This document shows positions 7,821 to 10,827 of a stretch of DNA of 64,000 bases, piece after piece. The position numbers and the translations under genes were made by a program. Under the pieces are notes generated by a model that searched no databases, was not told the origin of the DNA, and worked only from the letters and a program-made list of their open reading frames with translations. The stretch comes from a bacterium (GTDB lineage Bacteria > Hinthialibacterota > Hinthialibacteria > Hinthialibacterales > Hinthialibacteraceae), in contig WGLV01000002.1 of the NCBI GenBank assembly GCA_016125385.1, positions 62,001-126,000 of the forward strand. The letters run 5' to 3'. Numbering within the stretch: position 1 is the stretch's first letter; each line of letters starts with the position of its first letter.

Positions 7821-8894
7821 TCACCCTGCCTGTTTGTCTTTGACCACGGCGTCGAGGAAGGCGTTCGGGTTCCGCATATGCAACTGGCATTCTTCCGCGG
7901 TGATGAGACCGCGACGGTAGAGTTTAATCAGCGAGGCGTCGAGCGTCACCATGCCGTCTTTGGTACCGGTTTCAATGACCGAATACAGCTGATGCGTCTT
8001 GCCCTCACGGATCAGGTTGGCGCAGGAGTGTGTATTACGCAGAATCTCGACCGCAAGAACGCGGCCATCGCCGCTGGCGCGCGGCAACAGGCGCTGAGAC
8101 GCCACCGCCAGCAGGCTGAGCGATAATTGCACGCGTACCTGCTGTTGTTGATGCTCGGGGAAGACGTCGATGATGCGATCGATGGTCTGAACCGCGTCGT
8201 TGGTATGCAGCGTAGCCAGCACCAGGTGGCCGGTTTCGGCGGCGGTTAGTGCGGATGAGATAGTCTCCCAGTCGCGCAGCTCGCCGATCTGAATGATGTC
8301 CGGATCCTGACGCAGAACGAACTTGAGTGCGTTGCGGAACGACTGCGTATCGCCGCCCACTTCGCGTTGGTCGATGATGCTGTTCTTGTTGTGGTGGATG
8401 TATTCGATCGGGTCGTCGACGGTGATGATGTGACACCGCTTGTTCATGTTGATCAGATCGATCATCGACGCGAGAGTGGTCGATTTGCCATGACCGGTGG
8501 GGCCTGTGACGAGAAACAGGCCGTGCGACAGCATGGCGAGATCGTACACGATGGGTGGCAGACCCAGGTCTTTCAACTTGGGAATCTCATTGGGAATGGG
8601 TCGGAACGCCGCCGCCGAGCAACCGCGCTGCCAATAGCAGTTCACGCGGAAGCGGTGTTTGGAGCCGACGCCCAGCGAGAGGTCTAGTTCTTTTTTCTCT
8701 TCGTATTCCAAACGCTGCTTTTCGTTCAGCAAGGAATAGATCACACGTTTGGCTTCGTCCGGCGACATGGTGGGGTACTCAAGCGGGACCAGTTCACCGT
8801 GCAGGCGGATGATGGGCGGCGTCCCCGCCGTGAGCAGCAGGTCTGATGCGCCGCGATCGTATACGATGTGAAACAAATCCGCGATTTCAACCAT
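7821..8894 (-). CDS. pilT: Type IV pilus retraction ATPase PilT
   Basis: A hexameric cytoplasmic ATPase that drives pilus retraction and twitching motility. The N-terminal GASDLLLTAGTPP motif (residues 15-27) and Walker A GPTGHGKST (131-139) are diagnostic. The Asp box VDDPIEYIH, the Walker B region IIQIGELRDWETI and the His box GHLVLATLHTNDA follow in order. GELRDWET differs slightly from the common GEMRDLET. The start at 8894 is preferred because GAGAGGG lies six bases upstream; the longer frame adds ten residues. A second PilT-like ATPase lies 3.3 kb away on the same strand. Assignment to the PilT/PilU group is secure. Confidence 0.92.
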   Translation of the reverse strand: MVEIADLFHIVYDRGASDLLLTAGTPPIIRLHGELVPLEYPTMSPDEAKRVIYSLLNEKQRLEYEEKKELDLSLGVGSKHRFRVNCYWQRGCSAAAFRPIPNEIPKLKDLGLPPIVYDLAMLSHGLFLVTGPTGHGKSTTLASMIDLINMNKRCHIITVDDPIEYIHHNKNSIIDQREVGGDTQSFRNALKFVLRQDPDIIQIGELRDWETISSALTAAETGHLVLATLHTNDAVQTIDRIIDVFPEHQQQQVRVQLSLSLLAVASQRLLPRASGDGRVLAVEILRNTHSCANLIREGKTHQLYSVIETGTKDGMVTLDASLIKLYRRGLITAEECQLHMRNPNAFLDAVVKDKQAG

Positions 8895-8977
8895 TTTCAC
8901 CCTCTCACTGACGTCCGAGTTCATTCATCGTACAAGAATATCGCAAAAACTAAATTATGACCGGCATTGAAAGCAAT

Positions 8978-9595
8978 CTATGGGATGATGACTCCTCCAC
9001 TGAGTTGGAGGATTGTGTTGACAAACGCTTTTAGCTCGGAACACTGTTGAATCGCATCCCAAAGATCGTTCTCTTCCAAGATACGTTTCGCATCGCGAGG
9101 CTTGACGTAGCTGTCACGGCATTTGCCAATCTCAAATATCTCTTTGATCCGGTAAGCGGGCGGCTTGCCGTGATTTACAGTTTCAGGGTTACTCGGAAGC
9201 AATGTTCTGCTGTGTCCAGCAAGCTTCTGAATCGAAGACCAATAGGGAAGTAACCACGCTTCAAAATCATACTGGGCCGCGTGGGGATAAAACCTTGGCT
9301 CAATTCCCACCCACTGCCGCATCTTTTTTTTCGCGTCTGCTGCATCGATAAAATCTGGAGGATTGGTTCCGGTGTATACGTCGGTCAATGCAATTACATG
9401 ATCCGCCTTCACTTTCCCCATGTTCAGCAGAGCATTGACCAGGCGTTTCAAGTTGTCTCCGGTGGGGATTCGCCCGTTTTGTGGAACAGGGTTTAATTTT
9501 GGCATCCTGCCTTGGAGCCGTGTCTCAAGGAATTTCCTTAATGAAGGCATGAATGCTTTTTCGGTTTTTCCCTCAATGATGATGGAGATTTTCAC
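8978..9595 (-). CDS. DUF4276 (TOPRIM-like) protein, partner of the AAA ATPase
   Basis: DUF4276 proteins have a predicted TOPRIM-like nuclease fold. An N-terminal IIIEGKTE (catalytic-type Glu), LTDVYT (Asp) and QYDFEAWLL are visible. They are followed by the family's PETVNHGKPPAYRI motif and a C-terminal segment with KPRDAKRI and WDAIQQCSELKAF. The GTG start at 9595 overlaps the ATPase stop in a GTGA arrangement, so translation is coupled. The longer ATG frame from 9625 would begin inside the ATPase and lacks the family N-terminus. The gene ends in TAG. Paired ATPase and TOPRIM-type nuclease genes are common in phage defence (OLD, PARIS-like systems). That role is inferred here from architecture only. 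Confidence 0.8.
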   Translation of the reverse strand: MKISIIIEGKTEKAFMPSLRKFLETRLQGRMPKLNPVPQNGRIPTGDNLKRLVNALLNMGKVKADHVIALTDVYTGTNPPDFIDAADAKKKMRQWVGIEPRFYPHAAQYDFEAWLLPYWSSIQKLAGHSRTLLPSNPETVNHGKPPAYRIKEIFEIGKCRDSYVKPRDAKRILEENDLWDAIQQCSELKAFVNTILQLSGGVIIP

Positions 9596-10746
9596 GCCCG
9601 GCCCCCCATTTGACCCATCCGCCATGCATCATCAAGACTGTACTCTTTTAGCCATTCATCAAGTTGCATCGTATCCGCCCATTGCATTTGTGCATATCCA
9701 ACTTCACTGATGTCCATAACAACGACTTCGTGAGGCTCCAGAAAACGTATCAATCGATCGGAATGAGTCGCCACGATGATTTGGGTTCTCTTCGAGGCCT
9801 CTCGCATAAGATCAGCCAACAGGCTCAGCAGTTCTGGATGGAGGCTGACTTCCGGTTCATCAATCATGGTGATAGTTGTAAGATTCGGACTTTGCAGGAG
9901 GGAGACCAACCAAAGAAATCGTAAAGTTCCTTCAGAAAGCTGATGGATATAGATTGGATCCCGGAATTGCTTTTCTTTCCATGTCAATGAGAGCATCCCT
10001 GCCGCTGAGGGTGGAAATAGGAGTTTTTCGAAACCGGGAAAAGCGGATTTTAAAGTGTCTTCGATCGCCTCGTACCGGTTCGTATCACTTTCGCGGAGGT
10101 TGTAGAGAAAAGGAACCAAGTCTTCGCCGTCTTCACCTGGCAATCGAGCTGGTTTCATTTGCTGAGGTAATTTAACCGGCGCGTTCCGTCCAACATTTAA
10201 AACATGATATTGTGTTGTTGAACTTAGAGTCCGTCTCAATTCTTCGGGTTGTCTAAACATTTTGGGGACTTGAGACAGAGATGTTTCAAGAAAATTATGT
10301 TCCCAATCCGGTTTTCCCAAATGCCGTTCATTGATGTCATAATATCTTATACTGTTATATGTGGACTCAATATGCTTGAATGGGGCGGCATAGTCTCCTT
10401 CTCGCTTTTGAGATAGGATTTCCAGCGGTATTGCATATCCCTGCCCGCTTGGTTCGATTTTTAATTGGTATTCAAGCGGTTCGTAGCCGGGACAGTTCAT
10501 TTCAGCGCTGAGTGTTAAGTCTGGAATGAGTCCGCGAGTGCAAAGGTCAGACACTCCGCCGAGCAGATTCAATGTTCTGTTCATTGTCCCTGCCGCTGAC
10601 GCTGAGAGAAGCGACATCGCTTCGAGGAAAGAGGTTTTTCCGGCTCCATTAGCGCCAATCAGCACCATAAGCGGTCTCATCTCAATCTCAATTTCGCAAA
10701 GCCGACGAAATCCTTCTATACGAATTTTTTTGAGTTCATTGTACAT
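9592..10746 (-). CDS. AAA ATP-binding protein (AAA_21/OLD-like), defence-type
   Basis: An SMC/ABC-type ATPase without membrane segments. It shows Walker A GANGAGKT (residues 31-38), an ABC-like signature LSEGTLRFLW, Walker B ITMIDEPEVSLHPE and the switch histidine in IVATHSDRL. The C-terminal LDEWLKEYSLDDAWRMG-GG pattern is typical of ATPases paired with DUF4276. The start at 10746 has GAGGAG eight bases upstream; the longer frame lacks one. It overlaps the DUF4276 gene by four bases. The region is visibly AT-richer than its neighbours (22 G/C in the 60 bases from 10201, against 34 in the 60 from 8161), which suggests acquisition by transfer. A defence role is an inference. Confidence 0.85.
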   Translation of the reverse strand: MYNELKKIRIEGFRRLCEIEIEMRPLMVLIGANGAGKTSFLEAMSLLSASAAGTMNRTLNLLGGVSDLCTRGLIPDLTLSAEMNCPGYEPLEYQLKIEPSGQGYAIPLEILSQKREGDYAAPFKHIESTYNSIRYYDINERHLGKPDWEHNFLETSLSQVPKMFRQPEELRRTLSSTTQYHVLNVGRNAPVKLPQQMKPARLPGEDGEDLVPFLYNLRESDTNRYEAIEDTLKSAFPGFEKLLFPPSAAGMLSLTWKEKQFRDPIYIHQLSEGTLRFLWLVSLLQSPNLTTITMIDEPEVSLHPELLSLLADLMREASKRTQIIVATHSDRLIRFLEPHEVVVMDISEVGYAQMQWADTMQLDEWLKEYSLDDAWRMGQMGGRA

Positions 10747-10827
10747 TTCAGATGCTCCTCTAAATCGCATTCATGCGATGGAGGTTCCATTGTAGATGAT
10801 TTTCAATCACTTTTGGGGCGACAAATC

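Follow-up and report, generated by a model that had tools for sequence, protein, structure and literature searches.

Here, I show that two adjacent genes at positions 8978 to 10746 of the window, by which is meant the whole 64,000-nucleotide stretch of DNA analysed, form a real, conserved and mobile pair, which belongs to a divergent and mostly solitary subfamily of the listed candidate HEC-01. The pair probably acts as a small anti-virus system. The explanation that I favour, with reasonable though not high confidence, is that the two genes make up a small, mobile defence unit of HEC-01 type, a PARIS/OLD-like, ATPase-gated TOPRIM nuclease directed against phages or mobile elements. HEC-01 is the Hma-embedded candidate 01 of PADLOC-DB v2.0.0, and the HEC candidates stem from a preprint by Payne et al. 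(10.1101/2024.01.29.577857). Several of these candidates, HEC-06 included, are reported to be active in assays (2026 paper on archaeal systems).

Both open reading frames lie on the minus strand, exactly where the first-pass annotation had placed them. The upstream gene (9592..10746) encodes an OLD/PtuA-like ABC ATPase of the HEC-01A type, 384 aa long, recognised by Pfam, PADLOC, AlphaFold2/Foldseek and its motifs; it starts at the ATG at 10746, just 5' of which stands an AGAGGAG ribosome site (likely ribosome binding site region, 10749..10760, minus strand), and it stops at 9592-9594. An in-frame ATG at 10770, giving an ATPase of 392 aa, is less likely as the start. The downstream gene (8978..9595; PF14103, HEC-01B, AlphaFold2/Foldseek) encodes a DUF4276 protein of the HEC-01B type, a predicted TOPRIM nuclease of 205 aa, whose GTG start at 9595 creates the 4-nt GTGA stop/start overlap with the ATPase gene (9592..9595, minus strand) already read from the sequence at first pass, an arrangement indicative of translational coupling. 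The other possible DUF4276 start, an ATG at 9625 that would give a 34-nt overlap, seems to be there only because the ATPase ends in the conserved residues WRMG. Outside the module, and likewise on the minus strand, are two host operon genes, one for a PilT-like ATPase (7821..8924; homologues 71-86% identical in the same family) and one for the secreted protein P0003 (10828..12075; homologues in 4 other family genomes). PilT-like ATPase genes stand on both sides of P0003 (7821-8924 and 12228-13385), an order which is kept in related genomes. The lower G+C remarked upon earlier is real, the pair having 46-48% versus 54-58% in the flanking genes, and the gap is strongest at third codon positions (0.44 and 0.53 for the two genes versus 0.61-0.75 in the neighbours).

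The pair is mobile and travels between bacterial phyla, and the mobility that had been surmised from base composition is borne out by cross-phylum relatives, differing flanks and an empty site. A truncated copy aside, the closest ATPase is found in an Acidobacteriota genome, i.e. in another phylum, with 75% identity, above the 65% shared with a genome of the same family (G003) and the 55% shared with one of the same class (G011), and copies within the phylum have differing flanks. In three related genomes (G002, G003 and G004) homologues of pilT and P0003 are directly adjacent and the pair is missing, the gap between them in G002 being of ~4 nt; the pair was therefore inserted, as a segment of ~1.9 kb (8925..10827) between P0003 and pilT, into a tight operon and in the same orientation. 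No transposase is present in the inserted segment, and a repeat scan returned no terminal, flanking or target repeats. The DUF4276 subfamily of the window was not found in the phage records, viral contigs or plasmids searched. As the empty site shows, nothing but the two genes moves, so that most copies would be missed by searches based on defence islands.

This mode of spread bears on two other explanations. A cellular, non-defence function of the OLD type, e.g. in DNA repair or the cell cycle, has a precedent in the archaeal OLD-family ATPase Cran1, which acts in the cell cycle and not in defence (PMC12796447), and some cyanobacterial copies of the pair have conserved neighbours and seem to be vertically retained; yet the insert in the window is patchy, transferred and low in G+C, and close relatives have the site unoccupied, which makes such a function highly improbable. 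A selfish pair of the toxin-antitoxin sort, kept by addiction and devoid of a dedicated antiviral role, would be in keeping with a lone, compact and overlapping two-gene cassette sitting within a host operon and spread across phyla, and one distant copy does lie beside VapBC on a small plasmid. Against it, the conserved ATPase of 384 aa is large for an antitoxin and the repeated insertion into restriction and BREX operons (see below) fits defence better, so that I regard it as distinctly unlikely.

The ATPase and the DUF4276 protein are an obligate pair. Four related DUF4276 sequences served as queries against genome contigs and brought up 180 relatives, of which 80 were kept; these are 59-72% identical and hosted by Desulfobacterota, Acidobacteriota, Cyanobacteria, Nitrospirota, Planctomycetota, Chloroflexi, Magnetococcales and others. 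Wherever the ATPase was callable it was directly upstream (79/79), and an NTGA overlap was present in 76 of these 79 relatives (ATGA 53, GTGA 17, TTGA 5, other tetramers 4), so that translational coupling is conserved. The more alike two of the ATPases are, the more alike their partners tend to be (pairwise identity, r=0.78). One copy (L086, 10001-10609) has a stop codon within the DUF4276 frame and is possibly decayed or misassembled. The genome from which the window comes also carries a second, different ATPase-DUF4276 pair (G000:C25:15612-17317; L002, L042), again a lone two-gene unit, whose DUF4276 matches HEC-01B at 2.2e-76. In the phylum set of 14 genomes (G000-G013), DUF4276 occurs in 12, with up to 6 matches per genome, OLD-like TOPRIM in 2, and DUF4435, the PARIS AriB, in none.

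The ATPase matches AAA_21 (3e-36) and AAA_15 (3e-24) in Pfam, and the core motifs pointed out at first pass are all there, namely Walker A (GANGAGKT), signature (LSEGTLRF), Walker B (MIDEPE) and H-loop (THS), nearly invariant among 70 ATPase relatives save for the Walker A position A43, which varies. Its AlphaFold2 model (pLDDT 92.1) has as best Foldseek matches in the PDB the PtuA of retron/Septu, Rad50 and OLD. Among PADLOC models, HEC-01A is matched at 3e-72 over 381 residues, better than AriA (1e-31), Foldseek too preferring PtuA/OLD, and AbiLi is matched at 6e-22.

As for the partner, the DUF4276 assignment rests on PF14103 (Pfam, 1.9e-26), and HEC-01B is matched over nearly the full length (PADLOC, 8.4e-12). 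The AlphaFold2 model, built on 60 aligned DUF4276 sequences, has a pLDDT of 89.8 and a pTM of 0.88 and displays the parallel beta-sheet of a TOPRIM fold. Its top Foldseek match in the PDB is the C-terminal TOPRIM of OLD (6nk8; 2.1e-5, probability 1.00, TM 0.52-0.55), followed by the Xanthomonas (Xcc) OLD, GajA being weaker; the best viral fold match, an RloB-like protein, is not significant (E 0.013). A sequence search against the PDB gave no match, and in a profile comparison with two OLD TOPRIMs the VEGxTEK motif was the sole part aligned.

The motifs to which the first-pass annotation had drawn attention are located at residues 8-12 (EGKTE), 72 (D) and 111-116 (FEAWLL); 36 diverse DUF4276 proteins all have E8, D72 and E112, K165 being near-invariant among them, and Gly41, after beta-2, is at least 90% conserved within the window's subfamily. 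E8 and Gly41 thus supply the conserved Glu behind beta-1 and Gly behind beta-2 of a TOPRIM. In published OLD sites beta-1 is followed by a Glu, with a second acidic residue at +4; then come a DxD, a T/S/D-x-E where the helical region begins, and a Lys. In BpOLD the residues are E400/E404/D455/D457/T506/E508/K562, and in P2 OLD D541/E543 are known. The order E8, E12 (+4), D72 after beta-3, D110-x-E112 at a helix start and K165 matches that of the OLD site. Likewise, E12, D110-x-E112 and K165 are spaced like E404, T506-x-E508 and K562 of BpOLD (the metal-B acids and the catalytic Lys), with 53 residues from E112 to K165 and 54 from E508 to K562; the assignment of the OLD active site to DUF4276 is by order and spacing, not by superposition. 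The prediction of a TOPRIM-like site thus stands as regards the fold and E8, D72, E112 and K165, and falls short at the second Asp: the DxD motif after beta-3 is incomplete, D72 being followed by Tyr74 in the window's subfamily, whilst DxD is retained in some other DUF4276 subfamilies. As the motif is altered to DxY, the substrate chemistry may differ. With good structural support, DUF4276 may be regarded as a predicted TOPRIM nuclease, and the AlphaFold2 fold, the OLD match and the conserved catalytic positions together sustain the proposed logic of an ATPase coupled to a TOPRIM-like nuclease.

That the best fold match is an OLD TOPRIM, a DNA nuclease, and that the ATPase resembles OLD, Rad50 and PtuA point to a split class 1 OLD nuclease which would degrade phage or plasmid DNA directly, ATP serving for regulation or for sensing DNA ends; the alteration of DxD to DxY and the fact that the related split pair PARIS cuts tRNA argue the other way, and I hold direct DNA targeting to be possible but somewhat doubtful.

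The defence context of the pair is mixed. Of the role in defence initially put forward, what stands is that pairs of this type occur in BREX and restriction operons and match HEC-01, and what does not is a setting in defence islands, outside which most copies of the window's subfamily lie; for this subfamily that is largely the outcome which the first-pass annotation had named as refuting it. The nearest same-family relative (L037/L066) is situated within a BREX operon in the order BrxC, PglX, ATPase, DUF4276, PglZ and BrxL. More distant pairs, carried by plasmids, separate Mod from Res in type III-like systems (two Aeromonas plasmids), precede HsdR in a type I operon of a Meiothermus plasmid (HsdM...HsdS...pair-HsdR), or are flanked by a methylase and Mrr or by SNF2 and a methylase; in restriction operons they are often placed right after the methylase gene. 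The same type I operon of Meiothermus (L152, 1-10843; pMtWR-220) also contains DUF4433 and macro-domain genes, possibly a DarTG-like pair. Acinetobacter pTR11_2 (L145, 4114-6639) is a small mobilizable tet(39) plasmid with VapBC beside an ATPase-DUF4276 pair. At another locus (L065, 195-6662), proteins of 1350 and 803 aa with no Pfam match are encoded upstream of BrxL and the pair and are possibly divergent BREX parts.

The majority of copies of the window's subfamily are solitary, two genes between unrelated neighbours. PADLOC-type genes are not enriched near the pair (about 8/110 near versus about 6/118 far, as estimated from the matches listed). The window copy has no defence neighbours, the genes nearby being pilT and those of the secreted protein, an alkaline phosphatase, a PAPS reductase and TrmB; these neighbours rule out a defence island in the window, and a BrxP match at 2036-2815 reflects similarity of the PAPS-reductase domain only.

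The embedding beside methylases suggests that some members of the family guard modification-based defence. In a fuller form, which is a special case of the favoured explanation, the ATPase would sense anti-restriction DNA mimics (e.g. Ocr) and free the nuclease once a methylation-based defence is disabled. Independent embedding in operons of type I BREX and of type III and type I restriction systems, where the methylase gene often comes directly before the pair, speaks for such a guard, as do the presence of PARIS in a Salmonella BREX locus and the backup-effector model discussed below; nevertheless, the window's subfamily mostly occurs as lone pairs away from restriction genes, and BREX genes adjoin only 3 of the 64 independent loci (L065, L066 and L083) versus none in a small far control set, a difference which is not significant, so that the guard of restriction or BREX can be held only tentatively.

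Returning to the ATPase-gated defence module, I infer complex formation, activation, trigger, substrate and protection from phage as follows. The ATPase, with its ABC/OLD-type head, would assemble as a sensor and hold the DUF4276 TOPRIM protein, a two-metal nuclease; upon infection, or upon an attack on the DNA-modification defences of the host, it would activate or release the nuclease, which might then cut nucleic acid, either host tRNA or phage/host DNA, and phage growth would be stopped, probably by abortive infection. PARIS and the OLD nucleases, by analogy, make it probable that the DUF4276 nuclease is gated by the ATPase. Points against a defence module are the solitary copies, the lack of enrichment in PADLOC-type genes near the pair, Tyr74, the lack of phage, viral or plasmid carriage, the vertical-looking cyanobacterial copies and Cran1. 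A more specific proposal, namely that the window's subfamily represents a separate, solitary version of HEC-01 whose TOPRIM site is altered to DxY, moving as a bare two-gene cassette across many phyla and working as a PARIS-like guard by means of a different nuclease family, seems rather unlikely.

Among known systems, PARIS (AriA and AriB) likewise comprises separate genes for an OLD-type ABC ATPase and a TOPRIM nuclease, and some of its copies, like those of DUF4276 pairs, are in BREX loci, one of them in Salmonella; in PARIS the AriA hexamer retains AriB until a phage trigger, whereupon AriB cuts tRNA. The PARIS nuclease, however, is DUF4435 whereas that of the window pair is DUF4276, and membership of PARIS is rejected, for only PF14103 was matched and DUF4435 was found neither in the Pfam scan nor in the 14 phylum genomes. 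OLD nucleases cut DNA by a two-metal mechanism; OLD and GajA share with the window pair the ABC ATPase, the TOPRIM fold and the catalytic positions, but they are fused and carry DxD, whereas the window pair consists of two polypeptides and carries DxY. Gabija is likewise rejected, the window ATPase (392 aa) having no TOPRIM domain and no GajB helicase/UvrD gene being found beside the pair. The AbiL (AbiLi/AbiLii) and RloB-type pairs, too, combine an ATPase with a small TOPRIM-like protein, yet of a different TOPRIM family (DUF4276 versus AbiLii 0.047, not significant).

A 2026 BREX survey (PMC12839542) describes TOPRIM-linked OLD-ABC modules in BREX loci and proposes for them a backup-effector/guard model; as there described, their architecture and position in the BREX operon are the same as those of the embedded DUF4276 pairs. 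The repeated occurrence of pairs inside BREX and restriction operons suggests that methylation-based defences may be backed up or guarded by adjacent TOPRIM proteins of more than one family. These modules, and the listing of HEC-01 by PADLOC, take away the novelty that the first-pass annotation had implied. The literature searched yielded no paper naming DUF4276 or giving its function, and none describing HEC-01. With DUF4276 tied to the OLD/PARIS TOPRIM fold and its catalytic residues named, the HEC-01 candidate can be put to a direct test.

To sum up, HEC-01 and the window pair are both two-gene units, a HEC-01A ATPase (3e-72) with an adjacent HEC-01B protein (8.4e-12), membership being judged from profile E-values. 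Seven DUF4276 proteins of other subfamilies all match HEC-01B, five at 1e-70 or better (best 1e-89) and the other two at 4e-21 and 3.5e-15, so that HEC-01B and DUF4276 are one and the same family. Unlike HEC-01, the window's DUF4276 comes from a divergent subfamily with a weak HEC-01B score, and whilst HEC-01 is named for its embedding in Hma, the window's subfamily is mostly solitary and the window copy is not embedded, a close relative being situated within BREX and distant ones within restriction operons. Being already listed as the defence candidate HEC-01, the pair is a clear new example of it and not a new kind.
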